A stretch of 64,000 bases of DNA from Sinohyriopsis cumingii. Taxonomy: Eukaryota; Mollusca; Bivalvia; Unionida; Unionidae. Within the stretch, counting starts at the first letter, position 1. Each line of letters begins with the position of its first letter. The position numbers and the translations under genes were made by a program. The notes under the pieces are model-generated. The model searched no databases. It was not told the DNA's origin and saw only the letters and a program-made list of their open reading frames with translations. The DNA is taken from the NCBI GenBank assembly GCA_028554795.2, contig CM068832.1, positions 84,611,049 through 84,675,048 of the forward strand, given 5' to 3'. This document shows positions 14,282 through 59,547 of this stretch, piece after piece.

Positions 14282-28991
<14,710 letters not shown>

Positions 28992-31365: not shown

Positions 31366-32130
31366 AGATGTAAAGAACATACTTGTTCAAGGTCTTAACA
31401 CAATATCATCTGATTATGATGTAACAAGATACAGCTAATATAAAACTTAGTTACTTACTACTCTCTTCAGGTATTAAAAATGTTTTGGGTTCAATGTGTT
31501 GAAAAAATCAGCAGTGTTTTATCAATATTTTGGTTACAGCTACAGTATCAATTCTTGATTTGTATGTTGCTGGTTTTAACTGCACGTTGGACACATTTTT
31601 AGCTATATCGTGCTCTAGCTCTGAAACAGATTCTACCAAGTATGCTTTCGCGTGTGTGTTATGGAAAACGACTCGTACTGGAATCAAAGTATATTGTGTC
31701 ATTTATATAATTTTTGGCAAATTTATGTTGTATTAATCACGCAGTCGTACAAACCCAATGACTGAGAAAAAGAAAATGGAAAAAAAAAAAGAAATAAACA
31801 CGTAAAAAAATCCCAGGTGTCAAAGAGATTAACAGTTATTTCAAATACTATACAGTACATAAGCGTTTTAAACCTGGCGAGTTCAAATGACCTGTAGAAA
31901 GTAGATTCTTTGCGTTTCTAAAAGCATGTTCCAGTATATATGGGATTAAGATGATGATGACAAGGCCGACGTAGCTGTTGAGCAAGCACGATACGATAAT
32001 GACGAGAACGACGACGATAATGTTGTTTTCATTTTTGTATGCATGTTTGATATACTTGTAAAAGTGATATTAAAACCATTAGAAATAACACAAATGAAAT
32101 GGTAGTACCTTTTATGAGAGAGAGAGAAAG
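31366..32130. other. No gene seen
   Basis: Contains one open frame of about 68 codons without recognisable features, and a short GA tract near 32.12 kb. Nothing is supportable. Confidence 0.5.
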
Positions 32131-33503: not shown

Positions 33504-33791
33504 TTAAAGTTCTGAATGCACTGAATATTGCTGTAGGTGAATCTCGAAGTAACCATAATTATGAACATGTCGATCATTAGCGACCTCAAAGTGTTGAACA
33601 ATGTCTGACCATTGAAAGAATTTCTGACGAATCAGTTCTTTTATACCATTCAAGTACCAGTGGTTAAAGATCTGGTGACGTATCGGATGCAATTGTTCTT
33701 TACGTTTCACTTGTATTTTGACCAGCTCTCGGTAAATGCGTTCTCTCAACTCCACAGGCAAAGCACGAATGTTCTCTTGTAAAGTATCCAT
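33504..33791 (-). CDS. F-box-like small protein, copy 2 (95 aa)
   Basis: 95 aa. The first 39 residues are identical to the gene just upstream (33804-34259) and contain IRALPVELRERIYRELVK, an LPxEL-type F-box-like motif. From residue 40 the two proteins diverge, and this copy is shorter. F-box proteins recruit substrates to SCF ubiquitin ligases, and large DNA viruses encode such adaptors. That function is inference here: the motif is short and no substrate-binding repeat is visible. It starts 12 nt after the upstream gene's stop. Confidence 0.6.
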   Translation of the reverse strand: MDTLQENIRALPVELRERIYRELVKIQVKRKEQLHPIRHQIFNHWYLNGIKELIRQKFFQWSDIVQHFEVANDRHVHNYGYFEIHLQQYSVHSEL

Positions 33792-33803
33792 GAATAGGTC
33801 ATA

Positions 33804-34259
33804 CTAAATCCTCTTTGGTCTGACACAAGAAATGTACTCTTTGCACAAACATGGTTTCACTTCAGTGTCGAATTTAAATCGTTGAGTCACTAATCTACAC
33901 ATTACAATTCGTTCAGAAGTTTCCTCTTTCACCAAGTTGACATTGTGTTCAAAAAGTTTGTAATTCGTTAACTCTTCCTCTGGAATTCGATGCAGTACGT
34001 TTACAATGTAGTAACTACAATCGTCCATACCAAACCATTCCTTTTTATAACCAGAAGGTCGTTGATCAATGTCTGTCCAATGGAACACTTTCAATTGAAT
34101 CAGTCCTTGTATAGCCTTCAGGTACCAGTGGTTCAAACACCGGTGACGTATCGGATGCAATTGTTCTTTACGTTTCACTTGTATTTTGACCAGCTCTCGG
34201 TAAATGCGTTCTCTCAACTCCACAGGCAAAGCACGAATGTTCTCTTGTAAAGTATCCAT
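33804..34259 (-). CDS. F-box-like small protein, copy 1 (151 aa)
   Basis: 151 aa, same N-terminal LPVELRERIYREL motif as its neighbour, then a Trp/Tyr-rich middle (NHWYLKAIQGLIQLKVFHW) and a C terminus with CLCKEYISC. About 121 nt at the 5' ends of the two genes (plus strand 33673-33793 and 34141-34261) are identical, so the pair arose by recent duplication or is being homogenised. It starts 28 nt after the BIR gene, in a tandem cargo array behind PolB. The role in degradation or host interaction is inferred only. Confidence 0.6.
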   Translation of the reverse strand: MDTLQENIRALPVELRERIYRELVKIQVKRKEQLHPIRHRCLNHWYLKAIQGLIQLKVFHWTDIDQRPSGYKKEWFGMDDCSYYIVNVLHRIPEEELTNYKLFEHNVNLVKEETSERIVMCRLVTQRFKFDTEVKPCLCKEYISCVRPKRI

Positions 34260-34287
34260 GAACAGATGATTATGGTAAAAAGTTACT

Positions 34288-35031
34288 TCAATGTCTCGGT
34301 CCCACTAAAGGTAAGTAATGACAATTCGGTGACCATCGAGCATGTTCTACGTAGGCCGAATCTTGCGGTTCCCAGTGGTGAAGTGACACACCGCAACTGA
34401 AGCACTTGACTTTATCTCCTTCGCCCAAGTAGAAAAATCCGGCTCTGGCTAATTCTTCGGGGGTCGGTCCTCCCAGATACTTTGGCCATTTTCCTTTGAA
34501 CGATTGAAGACGATTTTCAAAGTCGCAGTATTCCGACAAACGTACAGGAAACGAATATTCGTTTTTCACAGGTTCGTTTCGATGAGGGTTGAGTGAAATG
34601 GGCAGGAGTTTGCTCAGGGCTGGATGACATCCGTAGGGAGGTAAACGTGTAGGTCGACATTCCCCTTTAAAACGAAACCCAGTAAAATGTCCAAGAGGAC
34701 GAGCAGCATCGCTTTCGCATCCCACAGGTTTGACACGCACAGCATCACTTTCCATGACAGGGGTAGGGGCACTAAAGTTCCCATGATGCTTTACGGCATC
34801 GCTCAGGTCACAACGTACAGCATCGGTCCCATCGCAAGGCTCACAATCGCACTCGTCTGCAAACTCCGTTACGCAATTACAATGGTAACCACATGGACAA
34901 TCGCAGTTTCCTTCCGGACATTTTCCGTCGCAATGCATGGGTCTTATCCATCCAGTATTAGTCGCACTAGAGAAAGATACAGCTTTTTTACAATCCCCAA
35001 ACTGGAACGATGTCTTTTTCAAAGTATTCAT
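34288..35031 (-). CDS. BIR-domain (IAP-like) protein 1, 247 aa
   Basis: The C terminus carries one BIR zinc domain (about residues 160-245): the WPKYLGGPTPEELARAGFFY core, Cys ligands in KCFSCG, then His and Cys in EHARWSPNC with the expected H-x6-C spacing. The N-terminal half is Cys-rich (CDGKCPEGNCDCPCGYHC) and resembles a metal-binding region. There is no RING finger. BIR proteins bind caspases or IAP antagonists and block apoptosis; baculoviruses and molluscan herpesviruses also encode them. A TATAAAAAG box lies at 35086-35094, 55 nt upstream. The first 11 or so codons and the promoter are conserved in element B, where the BIR domain is gone. Confidence 0.88.
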   Translation of the reverse strand: MNTLKKTSFQFGDCKKAVSFSSATNTGWIRPMHCDGKCPEGNCDCPCGYHCNCVTEFADECDCEPCDGTDAVRCDLSDAVKHHGNFSAPTPVMESDAVRVKPVGCESDAARPLGHFTGFRFKGECRPTRLPPYGCHPALSKLLPISLNPHRNEPVKNEYSFPVRLSEYCDFENRLQSFKGKWPKYLGGPTPEELARAGFFYLGEGDKVKCFSCGVSLHHWEPQDSAYVEHARWSPNCHYLPLVGPRH

Positions 35032-35085
35032 CTTGTTCGCTCGGTCTTGGTAGTCACAATGAACTATCGATCTTGACCATAGCCC

Positions 35086-35094
35086 CTTTTTATA
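35086..35094 (-). promoter_or_regulatory. TATA box for BIR gene 1
   Basis: TATAAAAAG on the minus strand, inside the 3' end of BIR gene 2. Element B has an equivalent TATATAAAAAGG at 62874-62885 in the same relation to its remnant gene. Confidence 0.65.
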
Positions 35095-35548
35095 CTAGTC
35101 TCAATGCAGTCTCCAACTTGTACATCTTTCCTTTTTTACGTTTTTTATGTCCTGTTCTGGAAGGTACCGTCTCTAAGGTACCATCAACATTGTACCGTAG
35201 TGCGATGGGTGGAAAGGCCATAGAAAGGTAAGGGCAGTTCAGAGACCATCGAGTATGCTCCAGAATAGCTGAATCTTTATAGATACATAGATCCATTCGT
35301 AACTTCAGTCCGCAAGCGAAACACTGTACCTCGTATCCCAATCCTGACTCAGGTCCCAAGTAGACAAATCCTGTTCTAGCTAAAACATGCGAAGAAGGTA
35401 ATCCTTCCCTATCCGTAGGCCATTTCTGAAACGTGTCCAATCGACGGGCACAATCACAATAGTCAGGTAAGAAGACTGGAAAATGGTAGGGTTTGAACTT
35501 GGAGTTCTCATCGGGTTTCTCACTCGATTCTTGCTGTGGCGAAGTCAT
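35090..35548 (-). CDS. BIR-domain (IAP-like) protein 2, 152 aa
   Basis: 152 aa, largely one BIR domain: RLDTFQKWPTDREG, ARTGFVYLG, Cys pair in VQCFACG, and EHTRWSLNC (H-x6-C). It is paralogous to protein 1, with shared spacing and a matching FPVFLPDYCD/FPVRLSEYCD lead-in, but has a longer insert between the Cys pair and His. No RING. It starts 23 nt after the PolB stop. It is a likely apoptosis inhibitor or other BIR-type adaptor; specificity cannot be told. Confidence 0.88.
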   Translation of the reverse strand: MTSPQQESSEKPDENSKFKPYHFPVFLPDYCDCARRLDTFQKWPTDREGLPSSHVLARTGFVYLGPESGLGYEVQCFACGLKLRMDLCIYKDSAILEHTRWSLNCPYLSMAFPPIALRYNVDGTLETVPSRTGHKKRKKGKMYKLETALRLV

Positions 35549-35571: not shown

Positions 35572-38500
35572 TTACAACCAATGTTTTATACCAACGTGTC
35601 CATACGGTAAGGTAAAATGATTGGGAAGTCGAACTCGCTTCTGGTACACGATTTGATAGACTTTTTCCAAGGGTCGACTGACGATGTGGTGAGTGGGTAA
35701 ACGTACAATCTTGTTCGGTTGGTAGGTGGTCACTTTAAAGTTTCCATCCTCTCCCGATTGCAAGGCTTCTTTCAATACCCCAAAGTTGACCACTCGACTG
35801 GTACGATAATTCAGAGTCAGTCCTTTCACTTTGCACGTCGTGTGCACTTCTCCTTGTTTGTCACGGTATTCGTAGCCGTAATTTTTGGGACCGCCACTGA
35901 CGAAACTTAGAATCTTGTCGTCGGGATGTTCGTCTGTCCAGGCTCCTAAACGGTCTCCTTCGATGTTAGGGTGATGTTGAATCGGGTGATGGATGTAAAT
36001 GCAACTGTCCGTGTCAAAGTACAGGACGCGTTCTTCTAACAGTTCTAAAGCTTCGTACAATTTTAAGCGAGCATGGGCTGTCACGTAAGCCGCAATGATG
36101 ACATTTCCAAAAGGGTCGTCTTGTACAAAGTCCAGATCTTCTTCGTAATTGACCAAGATTAAATTCTCTCGAACGACGTCCACGTGTTTCATGTATTTGG
36201 TTTTGTCGTGAATCATCTGGAAGTAGCGGGAAGGTTCTGTCAAATATTCCGTCTTGGGTAAACACGGTCGTTGTGCCATTTTGCCCCACAAGCAATTTAA
36301 CATCACTTTGGCAAACGATCGCCTGCCTTCGTTTTTCTCGATGTGGTCTAAAGTGATGCCTTCTTGTTCGTAGTATTTCTCTTTGAATTGTATTTGGTCT
36401 TCGGGAGTGTGACACCAGGAAGGATAGCCGCTGGCTTCTTGTTTCAGTTTCAAAAAGGCATCCACGTAGTCGGCGAAAATGCCTTTCTGCGTGGGGTCAC
36501 CCTTGCGGTATTGTTGTGTCTTGGGAAAGTGGCAAATTTCGTACACTTCTAACAGTTGGTATCCCATGTCCAGAGCTTTGAACAATTCTACGCTGACCCA
36601 AGTTCCCGTCAAGGCCCGTTCTTCCTGGCTGTGCTGACAAGCTTGGTCTTGGTTGCACGTTTCGGCACAAGTACGGCACAAGGGAAACATCAATTTGCCT
36701 TGACAATGGTGAGGTAAGACGGGATGGTATAGGTTCGTGGGAGCCAAAACTTTACACTTGATCAAGCCTTCGTATTGTCGAATGTTTTTCAGGTCGATGT
36801 GTTCCGTTAACAATTGCGGGTGCCCTACAGGAAAGCGACAATATTTGCACACGTAGGGATACAGCGAACACACGTCCAAGTATTTGATTTCTTCTCCTTT
36901 CTCTTCGTCGGCTTGGTACAGCAAACAGGTGGCATTGGTCCTTCCTCCGTACAAACTATCCCTCGGGTTCAGCGGGTCCACGAACTGGTAACTTTCCACG
37001 AGGCGTTTAAACTCGGGATCGGTTTTCAAGCGGTGATCGTATTCGTGTTCCCACATTTCCACCACTTGGTATCCTTCCTGTTCCAACTTTAGGCGTCGCT
37101 GACAAGTGTCCTGGTACAAGTCTTCCATGGTTCGTTGCAAAAACTGATTTTTAGTGCCACGGTCAGGGTAACAGACGGGACATCCGTGAAATAAGCAACC
37201 GTTAAACTCGTACACGATCTTGGGGTTTTCTAAGTCCCAGCCATCGACCGAATACGTTCCGATGGTCTTTTCGCCCCCTCCGTTGCGGGCATGCTGAATC
37301 CACTTGTCTTCCTTGTCGCACAAGTAATGTAACCAACGTAGGGCTTTGACCGAGTATTGACGTTTGACAAAGTGGGTCGTTTGAGGACTGATGACAGCCA
37401 CGGTCTTTTCAGGCATGAATCGTTGTCGATACACTAAGGAACACGCTTTGGCAATGGTGCAAGCTTCTTTCAAAGGATCGACCCCTCCGTGTTCCATGAA
37501 CAGTTCTCGAAATTTTCCACAGCAACGCCGTAAAATGTCCACGTCGGAACGACAATACTTTAGCATTTCTTCCTGAAAGTCGAAAGGGTCCGAGGCGTGA
37601 GCCTGGTACCAAGCGTAGAAAGCTTCTCGTTGTTCGGTACGCATGTTGTCGGGGTCGTAATAGTGAGCTTCAGGTAAATGGGGTAGAACGGCGTGTTGAT
37701 TGGCTTCCGTATTGAAAAAGTGTGGAAAGTACCCTTTAGCCATTTCTGTCATTCCAAACGTTTTAGGCATTCGACTCAAAGGCATGGCCAAGTAACTCAT
37801 CGAATCTTTAAACTGCACTTGTCCCACTTGCATGAAAATGATTTTGGCTCCGTTCAAAGTCACTTTAGGACGCTCGGTGCCTTGTTCCGTATAGTACCTC
37901 AAAAGAAACTGTCCATCGTATCCGGAGAAATTGTGAGCCATCACCGTGGCATGACGATGACAATCTCCGTAACGTTCGATGTCCTCTTGGCTCCATGTCT
38001 TGTCGACGGGGTCTAAGACCCATTGGGCAAAATCGGCTAACGTGTTTGGTCCCCGAAAGATTTTTTCACGCCCTCCGGGAATCTTGCTGCAGTGAGGGCA
38101 ATGACTGAAGATAGGTTCTTGAATGCACTTCTCGCACGCTCGATGAGCCACGCAGAAATTAGGAATGTGAATGCCAGTTTCTTGCATGCATTCGAAATCG
38201 AAAAAGATGAAATTGCCTTTCTTCTTGTGACCGTCCTCTTTCTCAGGTGGGGGTTGGTATTTTTGCACGTAACATTGGTGTTCCAAGTCCACGATGTGGT
38301 GACAAATGTGACATTTTTTCTTTCCTCGACATACGTGTGCCTTGACACTATTGGTACGTATGCCTTGTCCACACGCGGGGCACAATCTTAGCAGTTGACA
38401 AGCGCATTTCTTCTGTGAACCTTGCGTTTTCAGATGTTGTTGGTAACAGGTAGGGCTGACAAACGTGCGCAGACAAGTGGAACAAGGCACTGGTTCTTCG

Positions 38501-39606
38501 CTCAGACAGGGTGAAGAGGCCAAACATCCTGTGCATTTCGATCCACAATGCTTGTGTTGCTCTCGATTGTTATAACCATGGTCACATTTCTCACAGTAAT
38601 AACCGTATTTCAGGAATCCGGTGATACTGGTAATGGTATCGAAATGGTCATCGTGATGATAAAGATGAATGTATTTTCCGTCCTTAAAGTCTTGGCCTCG
38701 AAACAACAGAGGTCCGCGTACTTCTTGAGGGTGCACTTTCAAGGTGTAGCGTGGAGCTAGGGTATCTTGCAATTTTTGCATCTCAGGAATGCCACAGAGT
38801 GTGTCTTTGGACAGTCCGGTTTGTTGTAACAGGAGTTCTGCTTCGTTTCGTTGTTTGGCTAGATGGGAACGTTGAATAGTGTTCCAGGTTCTTTTCCATT
38901 CTACCGTGTCGTTCTTGTCGGCATAGGTTCGTCCCACCACGATGGCACGGGCTAAACACATCTGGTCATGAGAGTTGTTAATTCGGACAAGACTCTTTTT
39001 GGTGTTGCGAAGGTCGTCCACCAATAACATCTTTTTGCGTCCTGTCCCTTGAGGAGGAGAGACGTGGGTCATGTCCAGTGTGGCTTTACCATCGGTGATG
39101 TCAAACTGATCATTAGATTGTTGTACGTGTTGAATCTTGTCCATGACTTTGGAAGCAGTCAATTCTGCAGGGGTGCTAAACTCGATCCAAACAGGGGATT
39201 TCAAACCGTCGTGTTGTATGGAAAGTCTCAAGCGATCGTCTTCTTTGGGTTGACATTGTCGCTTGAGTGCAGTGAGCAAAGAATCCCACACCTCGGTGAT
39301 GAACCCTTCTGCTTTCTTTAACGGCACTTCAGCCTTGAAATCTTTAAACTTCACCGTGTATTTGTAAGCCGTGGTTCTAAATTTTCTAGAGGAGCGCTTT
39401 TCCGTCTCTCGAATGGAATAGTACTTTTCAGGGTTGACTAAGGGTGGTGAACTTGGTTTAGAGGGTTCGGATTCTGGTTCACTCATGTCCTCTTCAAAAT
39501 CACTGGCATGAATTTGTGCCAAGATTTCAGCCCTGGTACGAGGCGATAGATCACGTTTCTGCCTCTTACTTTCTTCTTTCTTCTCGAATGAATGGGATCG
39601 TTTCAT
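35572..39606 (-). CDS. Protein-primed family B DNA polymerase (Polinton PolB), intact, 1344 aa
   Basis: Replicates the element's linear DNA, presumably by protein priming. Motifs in order: Exo I FDFEC (469-473), Exo II HNFSGYD (558-564), Exo III YCRSDVDIL (about 684-692), Pol A DVCSLYP (about 911-917), Pol B KVMLNCLWGKMA (from about 1100) and Pol C YFDTDS (about 1196-1201). The N terminus is long, with a Lys/Arg nuclear-localisation-like start and two or more Cys/His clusters (337-445). An EFNGCLFHGCPVCY segment near 800 matches the extra module of Polinton polymerases. No stop or shift, so it is potentially functional, though the element is truncated. A TATA box lies at 39654-39661; the gene shares a short divergent promoter with the zinc-knuckle gene. 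Confidence 0.97.
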   Translation of the reverse strand: MKRSHSFEKKEESKRQKRDLSPRTRAEILAQIHASDFEEDMSEPESEPSKPSSPPLVNPEKYYSIRETEKRSSRKFRTTAYKYTVKFKDFKAEVPLKKAEGFITEVWDSLLTALKRQCQPKEDDRLRLSIQHDGLKSPVWIEFSTPAELTASKVMDKIQHVQQSNDQFDITDGKATLDMTHVSPPQGTGRKKMLLVDDLRNTKKSLVRINNSHDQMCLARAIVVGRTYADKNDTVEWKRTWNTIQRSHLAKQRNEAELLLQQTGLSKDTLCGIPEMQKLQDTLAPRYTLKVHPQEVRGPLLFRGQDFKDGKYIHLYHHDDHFDTITSITGFLKYGYYCEKCDHGYNNREQHKHCGSKCTGCLASSPCLSEEPVPCSTCLRTFVSPTCYQQHLKTQGSQKKCACQLLRLCPACGQGIRTNSVKAHVCRGKKKCHICHHIVDLEHQCYVQKYQPPPEKEDGHKKKGNFIFFDFECMQETGIHIPNFCVAHRACEKCIQEPIFSHCPHCSKIPGGREKIFRGPNTLADFAQWVLDPVDKTWSQEDIERYGDCHRHATVMAHNFSGYDGQFLLRYYTEQGTERPKVTLNGAKIIFMQVGQVQFKDSMSYLAMPLSRMPKTFGMTEMAKGYFPHFFNTEANQHAVLPHLPEAHYYDPDNMRTEQREAFYAWYQAHASDPFDFQEEMLKYCRSDVDILRRCCGKFRELFMEHGGVDPLKEACTIAKACSLVYRQRFMPEKTVAVISPQTTHFVKRQYSVKALRWLHYLCDKEDKWIQHARNGGGEKTIGTYSVDGWDLENPKIVYEFNGCLFHGCPVCYPDRGTKNQFLQRTMEDLYQDTCQRRLKLEQEGYQVVEMWEHEYDHRLKTDPEFKRLVESYQFVDPLNPRDSLYGGRTNATCLLYQADEEKGEEIKYLDVCSLYPYVCKYCRFPVGHPQLLTEHIDLKNIRQYEGLIKCKVLAPTNLYHPVLPHHCQGKLMFPLCRTCAETCNQDQACQHSQEERALTGTWVSVELFKALDMGYQLLEVYEICHFPKTQQYRKGDPTQKGIFADYVDAFLKLKQEASGYPSWCHTPEDQIQFKEKYYEQEGITLDHIEKNEGRRSFAKVMLNCLWGKMAQRPCLPKTEYLTEPSRYFQMIHDKTKYMKHVDVVRENLILVNYEEDLDFVQDDPFGNVIIAAYVTAHARLKLYEALELLEERVLYFDTDSCIYIHHPIQHHPNIEGDRLGAWTDEHPDDKILSFVSGGPKNYGYEYRDKQGEVHTTCKVKGLTLNYRTSRVVNFGVLKEALQSGEDGNFKVTTYQPNKIVRLPTHHIVSRPLEKVYQIVYQKRVRLPNHFTLPYGHVGIKHWL

Positions 39607-40306: not shown

Positions 40307-40312
40307 AATAAA
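40307..40312 (+). terminator. AATAAA polyadenylation signal (zinc-knuckle gene)
   Basis: AATAAA 90 nt after the stop codon. The gene therefore uses ordinary 3' end formation, unlike its neighbour at 40515-41096. Confidence 0.6.
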
Positions 40313-40447
40313 TGAATGATATAAGGTAAGTGTCTTTGAGTTGTGATTTTAAAATAAGAAGCTACACTCACGCACTCATACACAGACACGTACTATAAGG
40401 GTAACATGGGTGAGTTTTTTTTTTGAGTTATTGGCAAATTGAAATTG

Positions 40448-40491
40448 TATTTCTTTTCGAGATATGTGGGTGGCCCTGAAAAGGGCCTTTT
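40448..40491 (-). terminator. Histone-type 3' stem-loop and downstream element, copy 1
   Basis: The minus strand carries GGCCCTTTTCAGGGCC at 40472-40487: a 6 bp stem with the TTTC loop that defines the metazoan histone mRNA stem-loop. It has an AAA 5' flank and ACCCA 3' flank, and a purine-rich GAAAAGAAAT about 14 nt downstream in the place of the U7-binding histone downstream element. It lies 28 nt after the stop codon of the coiled-coil gene, the normal histone arrangement. Confidence 0.85.
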
Positions 40492-40514
40492 TTCTTCATG
40501 GTGTAGGGGTGAGT

Positions 40515-41096: not shown

Positions 41097-41099
41097 GTT

Positions 41100-41315
41100 G
41101 AATCACTGTCGCATAGATTGACTGCACACAAGCGCTAGCGAATCTATATTGACTACGTGACGTCACAGACTGCTCTCTTCGGATTGGATGCGGGCTGACT
41201 GAATTCTGTAACGCGTGTTCGGATTGGTGAATGAACTCAATCCGTTTCAATCCTTCCTCCGCCTATAAATAAGCGCCGTTCAATGCATTGATTCACCTGT
41301 TCTCGTCGCTTCAAG
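41100..41315. promoter_or_regulatory. Divergent promoter with CRE, two inverted CCAAT boxes and TATA
   Basis: Between two divergent genes. It contains the palindrome TGACGTCA (41159-41166), two TTCGGATTGG repeats with inverted CCAAT boxes (near 41,178 and 41,219) and CTATAAATAAG at 41263-41273, about 50 nt before ATG 41316. CRE, CCAAT and TATA together are typical of cell-cycle and histone promoters, which fits the histone-type 3' ends of both flanking genes. Confidence 0.65.
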
Positions 41316-41549: not shown

Positions 41550-41570
41550 TGAATACATTAACATAAAACC

Positions 41571-41615
41571 CAAAGGCCCTTTTCAGGGCCAGCCATATTT
41601 CTCGAAAAGAGATAG
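41571..41615 (+). terminator. Histone-type 3' stem-loop and downstream element, copy 2 (in TIR)
   Basis: GGCCCTTTTCAGGGCC at 41575-41590, preceded by CCCAAA, followed by AGCCA, and GAAAAGAGATAG starting 14 nt downstream. It lies 25 nt after the stop of the terminal plus-strand gene. Confidence 0.88.
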
Positions 41616-41692
41616 TCTTTGAATTGCCTACCCCTTTTTTAAATTTAAATTTAAATTTAAATTTTAAAAAAACTTTTTTTAAAAAAAAAAAT

Positions 41693-41906
41693 CCCATGTT
41701 AAATTTCCCTTGTACGTATAGTATCCCACGATTTATTCCCATGTTAAATTCCCCTTGTACGTATAGTATCCCACGATTTATTCCCATGTTAATTCCCCTT
41801 GTACGTAAAGTGTCCCACGATTTTTCTCCATGTTAAATTTCCATTATACGTAAAGTGTCCCAAGGGTGTTTTTAATGCTAATTCCCATTATACGTAAAGT
41901 GTCCCC
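41693..41906. repeat. Subterminal 45 bp repeats of element A TIR (about 5 copies)
   Basis: Units begin at about 41693, 41738, 41783, 41827 and 41871. Each has CCCATGTTAAATT followed by CCCTTGTACGTATAGT-type sequence (later units TATACGTAAAGTGTCCC). They could be binding sites for integrase, terminal protein or a replication factor. Confidence 0.88.
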
Positions 41907-41916
41907 ATTCACTACT

Positions 41917-51620: not shown

Positions 51621-51836
51621 AGTAGTGAATGGGGTGAGATTAGCGACAATGGGAATTAGCATTAAAAACACCCCCTGGGTAAGATTAGCGACAATGGAAA
51701 TTTAACACTACTTTAGGGACAAGGGGAATTGAACATGGGATCTTTTTAAAAAAAAAAATTAAAAAAGGGGTAGGCAATCGAAAGGCTATCTCTTTTCGAG
51801 AAATGTGGGTGGCCCTGAAAAGGGCCTTTGGGTTTC
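51621..51836 (+). repeat. Terminal inverted repeat, left end of element B
   Basis: 216 bp, inverted relative to 41567-41916. The tip AGTAGTGAATGGGG is shared. The subterminal repeats are fewer and carry GTAAGATTAGCGAC in place of the other element's ACACTTTACGTAT. The six flanking bases are GTTGAC. Confidence 0.9.
51787..51831 (-). terminator. Histone-type 3' stem-loop and downstream element, copy 3 (in TIR)
   Basis: The minus strand has GGCCCTTTTCAGGGCC at 51811-51826, preceded by CCCAAA and followed by ACCCA. A GAAAAGAGATAG downstream element starts about 12 nt later. This is a textbook match to the metazoan histone signal. It serves the minus-strand gene ending at 51889, 62 nt upstream. 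Confidence 0.9.
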
Positions 51837-51888: not shown

Positions 51889-52467
51889 TTATTCCTTTCT
51901 TCTTCTTTTTCTCCTCTGGCATCCAGTCTGGATGGCCCAAGGCTCTAAACTTTTTTCCTGGACTTTGATCCAATTCTGATTTAGCCTTTCAAAATCAGCC
52001 TGTTTCTTTTTGTTTTCCTGATCTTTTCTTTCTTTATTCCATCTCTCTTTAATCTTCTTTACCTCTACCTCCATCACTTTTCTCATAAACTCCTCTCCTT
52101 TCCTCAGTCTTTCCTGACCTCTCTCCACAAAAGAGCACTCTGTCCCATGTGACATATTTTCAAGAAAGCACCTGACTTTGCTTGCATTGTCAAGTGCTTC
52201 CTTTAGGCTTCCCACTCTGACATAGGTGGGATTTATCATACCTCTCAGTCTCTTTTCCTCCTCTTCTATCATTTCTGCTATCACTTCTTTTGCTACGTTT
52301 AGGCATTTAGCGTAGTCCAGATACTCTGCTATCTTCCATTCTTTTTCTAGTCTCTCCACTACATAGATACCATCCATTATCCAATTGTATATATGTACCA
52401 AATTGTTGAACAACTCACTTGCAACCACCATCTTCGTTTTTATTATTCCGTAGAATGGTTCGAGCAT
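51889..52467 (-). CDS. Accessory helical protein 1, about 180-192 aa
   Basis: No known family. Starts: ATG 52467 (MLEPFYG) or, allowing for a TATA-like CTATAAG at about 52,486, ATG 52431 (MVVASELF). Helical and charged throughout: WIMDGIYVVERLEKEWKIAE, VAKEVIAEMIEEEEKRLRG, then Lys/Glu-rich coiled coil (EVEVKKIKERWNKERKDQEN) and a basic end (RRKRRRKE). Its N terminus resembles the two neighbouring accessory genes. Its promoter carries the shared GGATGTTTTCCTTCAC motif and its mRNA ends at the TIR stem-loop. Confidence 0.7.
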   Translation of the reverse strand: MLEPFYGIIKTKMVVASELFNNLVHIYNWIMDGIYVVERLEKEWKIAEYLDYAKCLNVAKEVIAEMIEEEEKRLRGMINPTYVRVGSLKEALDNASKVRCFLENMSHGTECSFVERGQERLRKGEEFMRKVMEVEVKKIKERWNKERKDQENKKKQADFERLNQNWIKVQEKSLEPWAIQTGCQRRKRRRKE

Positions 52468-52960: not shown

Positions 52961-53025
52961 TCGCACTATGAAAAATAGAGTCAGTGTTTATATTCACACT
53001 ACTCTACCTACACACATTGGCAAAT

Positions 53026-53076
53026 TGATGGTTATTTCTTTTCTAGAGTATTGGGTAGCCCTGAAAAGGGTTGTTT
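53026..53076 (-). terminator. Histone-type 3' stem-loop and downstream element, copy 4
   Basis: The minus strand has AACCCTTTTCAGGGCT (53057-53072) with one stem mismatch, the TTTC loop, an ACCCA-like 3' flank (ACCCAATA) and GAAAAGAAATAA about 11 nt later. It lies about 170 nt after accessory gene 2. Slightly decayed relative to the perfect copies. Confidence 0.75.
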
Positions 53077-53247
53077 TTTGGAACTTCATGGACACCTGGT
53101 TAATGATGGCACCTTCCAGGCCTGGCGCCACATACGCATCTTGTTCTCCAGTTGCTTTTTACTTTTTTTGGGAGAGAGCAGAGGGAGGATAAATAGCTTC
53201 AGAGTCCCAATTTTCTGTCTCTGGGATTCTCAAATTTCTTCTCTCCT

Positions 53248-53557: not shown

Positions 53558-53895
53558 AAAAACATAAAACTGATCTTACCTAGATCATGACCAAACAACG
53601 CGCGGACCTAAAAGAAACACTCACTCACTTTTTTATACTACCCATTCCTATTCTAAAAATTTTTTTCATTAATCACTTCAATATACTATTCACATACGCA
53701 AAGCAATCCAATCAAACCCCCAAATGTACTCTCCCCACACCTCAAACAGCCCCAAAAAACATGATCTTAATCTACTATCCACACCAACGTACGTGAGATG
53801 TTACAAACACAAACACACAAACACATACACTCGCACTATTAAAAAAAGAGTTAGTGTTTATATTCACCCTACTCTACCTACACACATTGGCAAAT

Positions 53896-53946
53896 TGATG
53901 GTTATTTCTTTTCTAGAGTATTGGGTAGCTCTGAAAAGGGCTGGTT
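53896..53946 (-). terminator. Histone-type 3' stem-loop and downstream element, copy 5
   Basis: The minus strand has AGCCCTTTTCAGAGCT (53927-53942), one stem mismatch, TTTC loop, ACCCA-type flank, and GAAAAGAAATAA about 11 nt later. It lies about 205 nt after accessory gene 3. The block from TTGGCAAATTGATGGTTATT to the stem-loop is duplicated at copy 4. Confidence 0.75.
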
Positions 53947-54146
53947 TTTTTTTTGTTTTTTTTTTTGTTTGCTATGGCAATCTTTTAGTTTCTAAGAATG
54001 CGATGTCCTCTGAGGATAGACTTTCTGGCGATAGGTCTGCTTCTTCGGAAAGAGAAGAAGAACTCTTTGGTGTCGATACGACAATCGACAAAGCCTCTGT
54101 CAGGTTAAGGTTGCTACTGCTGCTGCTGCTGTTGCTGTTGTTGTTG

Positions 54147-55304: not shown

Positions 55305-56612
55305 CTAATAGTCTAGAATGACTTCTCTCAAACTGTTGATTTCTATCGTATTATCGAATTCTGCATACAGGATGACGTTCACTGTCTCTTTCAGTGGTTC
55401 TGTAAACTGAAGTTCCACACGAATCTGGCCGGATTTTATAGGGTGAAAATATCCCTCGTCGCTGCCTTGGTCTGGAGTGAAATCAAATGCCCACAAAGCA
55501 TAACCTCCTGCATAATCCTCGTACGTAATGCCGTGACTGGTGTTGGTCCCTAACTGTCCGGTGGCTTCGTACAGGGACAAGTACGATCTCAAGTAATTCA
55601 TCTTTGTGGGATCAAAGTCAGGTTCGAAAGGTCGGGTACACAAGGTCTTGCCGTCGCGACTGACTTCGATTTTCTTCACGTTGAAGTGATGAAAGTTGAA
55701 AGGATTTTTAGTGAAGGCTCCGTTGAAGGCTTTATTCTCGACCATACCAAGGATTAAACGCTTGGGTAACTGTCCTTGAAATAGATGATCTTCGATCATG
55801 GATTGATGGTTAGCGGGAATGGTGAACGTTTTCACTTCCACGCGTCGTATGGGATACTTGGCGGTCGTTCTGCTCAACGTTTGACTGATGTCGTTTCCCA
55901 CTTTAGGTAACACTTCCACGCGTCGTACGTAGAGTTTGGCCTCCTCGATTTGGCTTTTGGGATTGCCAGCAGCAGTATCAGCCAACAAATGGAAAGCGGC
56001 ACTGCTACGATTCAGTCTCAAGCGAACATTTACCCCGTTCAGCAAATATTTCTCTTGCAACCACATGTCCAAATGCAAACGATCCATCAGTTCTAAACTC
56101 TTCTTATTTAAGATTTTGCTTCGTCTTTCCACAAAGCCGTCATTGTCTTTATCTATTTCGTCAAACTCCTTCGCTTCGTCAGGTTCCCATAGCACACACG
56201 CATTGAGATGAGTATTCTTGGCATCTATTCCGTACGTCAAGAGATTTTCCAGGTAGGCACGATAAGGGTAAGTATCCATGCTGCTGCTGACCAGTTTGTT
56301 ATTCAAGTACAAGTCCACTGAGCTGAACAAGGAATGCATGAAATTGTTGACGGGAGCCATATTCTCAGTGTCTTCTACTCCACCATCATCCTTATCTAGA
56401 ACTTTGACTTTCAGGTACAAGTAACTGCTATTCAGATCGATGTAATCTTCGGGCTGTCCTTTGATTTCAAACTCGATAGGAGCGGAATCGGTCAATGAGG
56501 AGACGGGGTGAAATTCCACCCATTGGGATTCTTGCATGGTCATCATGGTGGGGGGCATGGCAAACAGATCCAGTTCCGACTTGGAACAGGCGCATGACTC
56601 TCGGTGCATCAT
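55305..56612 (-). CDS. Major capsid protein (F54H12.2-like, double jelly-roll), 435 aa
   Basis: Intact. The first ATG is 56612, giving MMHRESCACSKSELDLFAMP; an upstream TTG-extended frame is not needed. It contains SQWVEFHPVSSLTDSAPIEF, EDYIDLNSSYLYLKVKVL, FMHSLFSSVDLYLNNKLVSS and DTYPYRAYLENLLTYG, the hallmarks of the family widely labelled 'F54H12.2-like' in invertebrate genomes, which I take as the Polinton/adintovirus double jelly-roll capsid protein. It forms the trimeric capsomers of an icosahedral particle. An intact MCP in an otherwise damaged copy suggests recent activity. Confidence 0.93.
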   Translation of the reverse strand: MMHRESCACSKSELDLFAMPPTMMTMQESQWVEFHPVSSLTDSAPIEFEIKGQPEDYIDLNSSYLYLKVKVLDKDDGGVEDTENMAPVNNFMHSLFSSVDLYLNNKLVSSSMDTYPYRAYLENLLTYGIDAKNTHLNACVLWEPDEAKEFDEIDKDNDGFVERRSKILNKKSLELMDRLHLDMWLQEKYLLNGVNVRLRLNRSSAAFHLLADTAAGNPKSQIEEAKLYVRRVEVLPKVGNDISQTLSRTTAKYPIRRVEVKTFTIPANHQSMIEDHLFQGQLPKRLILGMVENKAFNGAFTKNPFNFHHFNVKKIEVSRDGKTLCTRPFEPDFDPTKMNYLRSYLSLYEATGQLGTNTSHGITYEDYAGGYALWAFDFTPDQGSDEGYFHPIKSGQIRVELQFTEPLKETVNVILYAEFDNTIEINSLREVILDY

Positions 56613-58436: not shown

Positions 58437-59547
58437 TCACTTCTTTATATAGTCGATGACTTGCGAAGCGTCGATCCAAGAATCAAAACTGGGTGGATAT
58501 CCTTTCCAACGTACTTGGACTTCTTTGACACGTCGTTTGCCCACTTTACGGGTTCTGCGTTCGAGAATGCTTTCGATGTCGTACACGTCGTCTTCGTTTT
58601 TGGTCACACGTTGTAACTCGGGCAAATAAAACGTTCCTTTGAGCACTTCTCCGTTCATGTCTTCCAATTTATAGACGGCAGGATGACGGCCATGCACTCG
58701 TCCAGTGACACGAAACAATTCGGTTGTCCAGTTAGGTAAGTAACCTTTGTCGAAAGTGCGTTTGGTTTTGCCAATGCGCACCCAATCTCCTACGGCCAAC
58801 TCTCCACTTTTTTTGGGGACAGCCCTCGTCGGGGACGTACCAAACAGGCGCTCAAACACCAACACTTCGTTCTCGGGAGTCACGTCTTGCGGGGCACGTC
58901 CGATGCTTCGATGGTAAGATTGGTTGTACGCTTGCACCAGGTGTGGTAAGATGTCGATGTACTTCAGAGTGTGGTGATGCGTAAAATATTTCCACATGCG
59001 TTCTTTCAAAGTGCGTTGAAAACGTTCCACGATGCTGGCTTTGGTTTCGGGATTCTCGGTGGTAAAAAAAATGAATGTCACGTTTCTTTAATTCTTTTTG
59101 GAAAGCGTGGTTCAGAAATTCGGTGCCTTTGTCCGTTTGCCATCGAAGAGGGTGACGGCCACTTTGTTTCAACACTCGTTGCAGGGCTCGCACTAACTCG
59201 CTGCTCGATTTGGAAGTCAAGGGCACGACCCAGGCAAATTTGGAAAAGACGTCGATGACACAAAACAAATATTTGTAGCCACGATTGTAGCTGGCCAAAT
59301 GAGAGACATCGGCTAAATCGGCTTGCCATTGATGATCGATGCCTTCCACTCGGGTGCGACTTCTGGCAAACTTGCGTCGAATGGGTTTGTGTAAAGTGTA
59401 GGTAGCTTGTTCTTGTAACCATCGTTGCACTTGAGGTAAACGGAGACTTTTCAATCGAGTTTTGGCAGCACGATACAATTTTTGAACTCCTGCGTAACCT
59501 GCAGGATGAGAGGGATCGTAGTAAATGCTGACTAAGACTTTTTCCAA
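58437..59547 (-). pseudogene. Retroviral-type integrase with chromodomain (c-integrase), frameshifted
   Basis: Inserts Polinton DNA with 6 bp target duplications. Order: N-terminal helical region (YDPSHPAGYAGVQKLYRA), DDE core with Asp in QWQADLADV, Asp in WQTDKGTEF and Glu in KASIVERFQRTL, an SH3-like region (VGDWVRIGK), and a C-terminal chromodomain (YDIESILERR ... VRWKGYPPSFDSW). A one-base change in an eight-base homopolymer at about 59,067-59,074 separates the second Asp and the Glu into different frames. The start lacks ATG (TTG at 59547 where a Met would be expected). All three catalytic residues survive. Confidence 0.93.

Follow-up and report, generated by a model that had tools for sequence, protein, structure and literature searches.

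Why does a 3′-end signal that in animals is normally reserved for histone messages stand behind genes of a mobile element? In the histone pathway the stem-loop is held by SLBP, the U7 snRNP pairs with a downstream element and CPSF73 cuts a few bases past the stem, and a histone-type mRNA persists as long as replication continues. In a first-pass annotation of a 64,000-nt stretch of the Sinohyriopsis cumingii genome (the whole of this stretch is referred to as the window) one such site had been noticed and assigned to a Polinton gene. The analysis of the window, the host genome, public sequence collections and the literature reported here shows that the signal is a family-wide feature of the element and is found at at least three gene positions.

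The tally section of PMC12220804 counts six 'histone 3′UTR stem-loop' Rfam hits in polinton-like viruses and virophages; the section itself leaves out their gene context, any downstream element, their conservation and what they might mean. Within the full-text literature searched, which was mostly non-subscription, this tally was the only prior mention in print that was found, and no description of histone-type 3′ ends of Polintons or adintoviruses was met with. In the available portions of the texts concerned, the term 'stem-loop' is absent from PMC11071296, 'histone' and 'stem-loop' are absent from PMC11071308 and 'histone' is absent from PMC8905726.

Materials and methods

The window comprises positions 84,611,049-84,675,048 of CM068832.1 in assembly GCA_028554795.2. 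The RF00032 covariance model, for which the Rfam gathering score is 34 bits, was run over the whole 64 kb, and a permissive RF00032 scan covered positions 26000-64000. A stem-loop together with its downstream element is called a cassette, and genes are referred to by their first coordinate in Table 1. The RF00032 search of the 2.9-Gb genome scored 75 of 589,472 first-look candidates, an incomplete list that was fetched by the motif itself; the 75 loci were taken with 1.5-2 kb on each side and protein matches were counted at E 1e-3. Conservation was assessed at second stem-loops in the fetched loci that had played no part in the fetching. A motif-blind sample was obtained by a protein search with the product of gene 40515, in which 150 copies of 31,124 first-look candidates were scored, and cassettes were checked in every seventh row from row 2 of these copies (20 of 150). 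For the host signal, one H3 gene and one H2B gene, both named from their translations, were read at their 3′ ends.

Results

Two insertions of one Polinton family

Portions of two insertions, both from a single Polinton (Maverick/adintovirus-like) family, lie in the window (Table 1). With Polintons, Mavericks and adintoviruses this family shares the family B DNA polymerase (PolB) and, probably, the chromodomain integrase piece, the capsid-type gene and the terminal repeats. Element A ends at 41916 and contains a PolB gene, whose product is presumably protein-primed, two BIR genes, a zinc-knuckle gene, gene 40515 and a small rightward gene. Element B starts at 51621 and continues beyond the window with an accessory gene, a capsid-type gene, the integrase piece and a PolB fragment that is 95% identical to the PolB of element A. 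No match to an integrase core was found in the integrase piece tested. The product of gene 55305, which we take to be a capsid protein, had no Pfam, PHROGs or solved-structure match; the organisms named among the 120 homologs listed are the bivalves Mercenaria, Ostrea, Crassostrea and Saccostrea as well as one symbiont MAG, and the family has a like gene neighbourhood in relatives such as L002.

Table 1. Positions of the element genes, terminal repeats and histone-type 3′ signals in the window
Feature	Position	Strand	Evidence
Viral-type family B DNA polymerase (PolB), element A	35572..39606	-	PF03175, E 1e-41
Zinc-knuckle gene, AATAAA at 40307, no stem-loop	39741..40217	+	PF00098; hexamer scan
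Histone-type stem-loop and downstream element, behind gene 40515	40448..40492	-	RF00032, 41.2 bits
Terminal-region gene, 193 aa	40515..41096	-	20 public homologs
Intergenic region between divergent genes 40515 and 41316, 219 nt	41097..41315		Motif scan
Small right-terminal overlapping reading frame(s), ending at the right-terminal stem-loop	41316..41549	+	Frame list; relatives sense-upstream elsewhere
Right terminal repeat, element A	41566..41916	+	Repeat comparison with element B terminus
Histone-type stem-loop and downstream element	41570..41615	+	RF00032, 35.6 bits
Left terminal repeat, element B	51621..51835	-	Repeat comparison with element A terminus
Histone-type 3′ stem-loop and downstream element	51786..51831	-	RF00032, 42.5 bits, E 3.2e-9
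Accessory gene upstream of left-terminal stem-loop, 192-aa ORF	51889..52467	-	P0141, 55% identity over 83%
Decayed stem-loop copy, 5 of 6 pairs, downstream core kept	53032..53077	-	RF00032, 20.7 bits, below cut-off
Decayed stem-loop copy, 5 of 6 pairs, downstream core kept	53902..53947	-	RF00032, 21.4 bits, below cut-off
Major-capsid-like gene, element B	55305..56612	-	1828 homologs among 8000 candidates scored
Integrase C-terminal piece with chromodomain	58437..58997	-	PF00385, E 1.3e-7 in longer frame 58440-59081

Both termini, which belong to two different insertions, share AGTAGTGAATGGGG and a terminal repeat. The best-preserved long part of the repeat is its stem-loop end, with 92.6% identity over 81 nt (the region of the 51786-51831 cassette against 41566-41646), compared to 79% over 91 nt and 80% over 50 nt in other places, with pieces of 31-32 nt at 87-90%. 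A second terminus of element A or B was not found in the window, hence no target-site duplication is readable. The two BIR (inhibitor-of-apoptosis) genes adjoin the PolB of element A at 33504-35548, and a duplicated reading frame start is seen by these genes at 33504-34259.

Histone-type 3′ signals in the window

Five cassettes, three intact and two decayed, were found in the window, all of them inside the two Polinton insertions and each with a purine downstream element; no other Rfam family exceeded its own cut-off in the scan of the whole 64 kb. The site noticed in the first-pass annotation lies in the left terminal repeat of element B, at its inner end, and reads CCAAA-GGCCCT-TTTC-AGGGCC-ACCCA... 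on the minus strand (51831-51786). It had been called a metazoan histone 3′-processing signal, and its score lies well above the gathering score (42.5 against 34 bits). Its attribution to a Polinton gene agrees with the location of all window sites in Polinton insertions, and the distance of 62 nt given between stop and stem was confirmed for the ORF ending at 51889. The downstream element that had been placed 12 nt after the stem is present, but its spacing had to be corrected, with GAAAAGAGATAG starting 13 nt after the stem.

In element A, the cassette at 41570 lies in the right terminal repeat, likewise at its inner end. Two cassettes are thus located at the inner ends of terminal repeats, each behind an outward-reading gene, and a third stands behind gene 40515. 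Allowing for up to three mismatches, the window contains five occurrences of the core CCCTTTTCAGGGCCACC, compared to 0.07 expected, exactly at the five cassette sites, and TCT[AC]GAAAAGA[AG]ATA also has five occurrences, all at the five stem-loops and nowhere else in the window. TCTNGAAAAGA is present in all five copies, the ACCCA flank in four (the 41570 copy has AGCCA) and the complete set of six stem pairs in three. The five cassettes are similar over about 60-80 nt, and outside them ungapped identities are mostly between 0.2 and 0.5, with the exception of the terminal-repeat pair and of the decayed pair, the two copies of which share a 120-nt duplication. Covariation among the five is too slight to count. 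Beyond the downstream element, four of the five cassettes also share the sequence AATT(T)GCC(A/T)A (40431-40440, 41622-41630, 53017-53026 and 53887-53896); the fifth has a near match, and one further copy lies away from the cassettes at 31714.

Genes located upstream of the signals

The signal-bearing genes of the window are accessory genes near the element ends and not the capsid-type or polymerase genes. Behind gene 40515, which had no Pfam or PHROGs family match above the cut-off, the stem starts 27 nt past the stop. The protein has an N-terminal acidic, hydrophobic stretch (NWDFVDFL) and a basic stretch in its C-terminal half. For gene 51889, P0141 was the only public relative found, and a BLASTP comparison with the interior frames gave nothing firm. 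The C-terminal frame of the ORF differs from that of P0141, whose final frame can be read on in the window as far as 51848, which leaves 21 nt to the stem. Relatives of the gene 51889 product and P0141 lie sense-upstream of left-terminal stem-loops elsewhere in the genome.

Genes 40515 and 41316 are divergently oriented, and the region between them, a putative promoter, contains TATAAA at 41264 (+), CCAAT boxes on the minus strand at 41183 and 41223, and TGACGTCA at 41158. We take this back-to-back start to resemble that of H2A-H2B pairs. For genes 40515, 51889 and 41316, the coding strand contains neither AATAAA nor ATTAAA between the stop and the terminus or the next gene, an absence that over such short stretches is only suggestive because about one such hexamer is met with per kb. 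Of the neighbouring genes, at least the zinc-knuckle gene has an ordinary AATAAA signal.

Comparison with the host histone signals and search for U7 snRNA

In the host genome the histone gene repeats are about 8.3 kb apart. At the 3′ ends of the H3 and H2B genes the sequences GGCCCTTTTTAGGGCC and GGCCCTTTTCAGGGCC precede TCTAGAAAAGAGCTAA and TCTAGAAAAGATGTAA, and the stem-loops scored 35.9 and 38.2 bits with RF00032. Both have a GGCCCTTTT[TC]AGGGCC stem with the core TCTAGAAAAGA, as in the element, and both contain TCTNGAAAAGA. The element therefore resembles the host histone signal in its GGCCCU stem, where the Rfam consensus line has GGCUCU, and in the same downstream core. The flanks differ, the 5′ flank being CCAAA or AAAAA in the element and TAAAC and CAAAC in the host, and the 3′ flank being mostly ACCCA in the element and ACACA and ATACA in the host.

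The host U7 snRNA was not found by the RF00066 genome search, the controls of which were silent too. A first U7 pattern gave two matches, the same number as its reversed control; both were rejected as antisense decayed element cassettes, to which they align with scores of 158 and 170 compared to 16 and 20 for shuffles. A second pattern gave 71 matches, fewer than its reversed control (100), and three of these were examined, with no clear U7-like hairpin and 15.6-16.0 bits with RF00066 (cut-off 34). One of the three, the locus L112 (G000:C226:476830-476929), which is possibly a U7 gene or relic and no more than a lead, has 13 nt complementary to the downstream element of the host H2B gene shortly before AATTTGTCTAG; only 7-8 nt are complementary to the element cassettes, and a clear 3′ hairpin was not seen. 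With human U7 in place of the host U7, none of the five cassettes paired significantly better than shuffles.

Genome-wide distribution

All 75 scored genome matches, in 72 clusters on 24 contigs, exceeded the cut-off, whereas the 14 control genomes gave an RF00032 match in one genome only, below the cut-off. Proteins of the window Polintons matched near 73 of the 75 loci, in seven of these only through two short interior frames, and the remaining two loci had no element protein match but contained the element terminal repeat. Within the 1.5-2 kb on each side, none of the 75 loci had a match to H1, H2A, H2B, H3 or H4; the list misses the two host histone stem-loops (38.2 and 35.9 bits), so that it gives no measure of how element and histone signals compare in number.

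By their upstream sequence the loci were assigned to 29 right-terminal, 23 gene-40515 and 12 left-terminal loci, and 11 loci, among them the two without protein match and the seven with short matches only, remained without class. The terminal repeat follows the stem-loop in all 11 of the latter (alignment scores 158-243 compared to 24-38 for shuffles), and, as expected, in 12/12 left-terminal, 28/29 right-terminal and 0/23 gene-40515 loci. AAAAGA is present in 72 of the 75 loci and the full TCTNGAAAAGA in 39. Besides the two decayed copies of the window, which lie in the interior of element B, two decayed cassettes elsewhere in the genome are L088 and L089.

Retention and conservation of the signal among copies

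At the sites that had played no part in the fetching, the gene-40515 stem-loop was alignable in 26 of 29 right-terminal loci, with six pairs in 20 of the 26, five in five and four in one, and the right-terminus stem-loop was alignable in 22 of 23 gene-40515 loci, with six pairs in 20 of the 22. Identity to the window copy reached 0.96 for the stem-loop part and 0.93-0.94 for the downstream block, whereas adjacent coding, untranslated and downstream sequence had 0.70-0.88; the short spacers that separate stem-loop and downstream block vary (0.39 and 0.91).

At the right terminus the mean pairwise difference was 0.011 in the stem-loop and 0.161 in the preceding 20 nt, and it was 0.096 in the downstream block, 0.090 in the next 18 nt and 0.174 in the rest (41633 on). 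Taken together, the stem-loop with its flanks and the downstream block differed by 0.065 compared to 0.159 in the rest (p 0.0053, with columns treated as independent and no tree). For gene 40515 the same contrast, calculated in the same way, was not significant (0.052 compared to 0.082, p 0.096); here the pairwise difference was 0.047 in the stem-loop, 0.058 in the untranslated part and 0.067 at third codon positions, and 0.020 in the downstream block compared to 0.152 beyond it. Constraint is clear for the stem-loop of the terminus and for the downstream block of gene 40515, and it is weaker for each other part.

In the motif-blind sample all 150 scored copies of gene 40515 were free of internal stops, at 98-100% identity. 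A complete stem, the TTTC loop and the downstream core were present in 20/20 of the copies checked, with the stem 29-31 nt past the last codon; these copies are young and comprise 10 distinct sequences, and the result thus speaks for a signal retained in an active family rather than for long-term constraint. The heavy amplification of gene 40515 suggests a burst in the recent past.

Evidence on a longer time scale comes from P0011, a public homolog with 65% identity to gene 40515 that is known as a protein only and extends past the usual stop into a peptide resembling a translated cassette. In a tblastn search of the window with P0011 the three intact cassettes were the top three matches (E 7e-5, 2e-4 and 0.003), followed by E 0.12 and 1.6 at the decayed cassettes. 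Among 141 proteins compared, P0011 alone has such a tail.

Searches in relatives

In the viral contig collection, queries with PolB, gene 40515 and the capsid-type gene gave no relatives. DNA stem patterns matched five stretches there (one and four), with one further pattern giving none, and three of the five stretches reached the RF00032 list at 21.0-24.8 bits, below the cut-off. Only distant polymerase matches were obtained from the phage collection. Five distant Polinton loci, which are capsid relatives on GTDB contigs, had no RF00032 match at E up to 5, and thus either the trait is lineage-specific or the element ends are not covered by these loci.

Discussion

With the presence of the signal, its position and sense orientation behind element genes, its retention across copies and its likeness to two host histone signals established, we consider it most probable (about 0.8), from the DNA sequence, that the element carries a retained mimic of the host histone 3′-end signal, which would give non-polyadenylated mRNAs. 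The element appears to have a modular copy of the histone pre-mRNA 3′-end signal of its host, consisting of the six-pair stem, the UUUC loop, an ACCCA-type flank and the purine downstream element, and located behind gene 40515 as well as, inside the terminal repeats, behind the outermost gene of either end. With the known histone mRNA 3′ end processed by SLBP, U7 snRNP and CPSF73 (RF00032) it has in common the stem, the UUUC loop, the purine downstream element and the short distance from stop to stem, and it differs from it in being attached to non-histone genes of a mobile element.

Host SLBP would bind the stem-loop of the element transcripts, the U7 snRNP would bind their downstream element and CPSF73 would cleave them. 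The mRNAs would then end in the stem-loop without poly(A), and, ending in this manner, would be made and be stable mainly during host DNA replication. The accessory genes might be expressed in replicating cells, possibly in the germ line or the early embryo. A takeover of the histone mRNA 3′-end pathway by the element, as a system for expressing its own genes, in this full form, with the signal carried in the terminal repeats and with the outermost genes as well as the divergent gene with its CCAAT, TATA and CRE motifs yielding non-polyadenylated S-phase mRNAs, is favoured here, with less assurance than the mimicry as such. If it is correct, these genes would be the first known set of non-histone protein-coding genes in animals that end in this way.

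The absence of AATAAA and ATTAAA within the genes' own space bears also on a different role of the stem-loop, one in which it affects the stability or translation of transcripts that carry poly(A) as well. Such a dual arrangement has a parallel in the polyadenylated transcripts that are reported (PMC3661734) for some replication-dependent histone genes, but it would not lead one to expect the U7-type downstream core to be kept together with the stem-loop, and it seems unlikely.

The retention data in turn have to be weighed against a passive origin, in which a host histone 3′ end was captured once by an ancestor and the sequence, now out of use, is carried along as the element and its terminal repeats multiply. 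Because many copies arose recently and are almost identical, they are not independent, and identity alone is weak evidence; the 75 loci were fetched by the motif, the interior copies are decayed and the contrast at gene 40515 is not significant. A mere passenger would nevertheless hardly be expected at three separate gene positions, on both strands and sense-downstream of reading frames, nor behind a homolog of 65% identity (P0011). At sites that played no part in the fetching, the stem-loop of the right terminus has changed much less than the sequence around it, and the flanks of the cassettes have diverged past ungapped alignment while the cassettes have not. We regard passive spread as improbable, slightly more so than the dual arrangement.

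The two window cassettes at the inner ends of terminal repeats would also fit a hairpin acting as DNA, for example in replication or transposition. The cassette of gene 40515, however, lies about 1.4 kb inside the element with no terminal repeat behind it (23/23 loci), a DNA hairpin gives no reason for keeping the downstream element and the 3′ flank, and stem and downstream core are common to two host histone genes; a function of this kind is very improbable. A chance match, for which the stem-only matches in viral contigs might be cited, is refuted by the RF00032 scores (35.6-42.5 bits at three window sites compared to 21.0-24.8 bits for the viral-contig stretches on the list), by the five cores against 0.07 expected and by the genome-wide matches beside element genes.

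If the retained mimic of the histone signal functions as proposed, it would break the rule that this signal is reserved for histone messages and would give a selfish element a simple means of coupling the timing of its gene expression to the replication of host DNA. Poly(A)-selected RNA-seq would not show the element mRNAs, and this may be among the reasons for such transcripts being missed. The element also makes it possible to see, as a natural experiment, which parts of the signal remain under constraint away from histone genes.

Two minor observations concern other mobile DNA. Animal-type Polinton pieces (L002-L006) were seen in MAG records of an Escarpia laminata endosymbiont, a Bathymodiolus symbiont, Breoghania and Rickettsiaceae, and their occurrence in bacterial records is probably due to host contamination. 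Within the window, an LTR-type retrotransposon is located at 18387-24546, with 300-nt end copies that are 100% identical and with reverse transcriptase and integrase domains between them.
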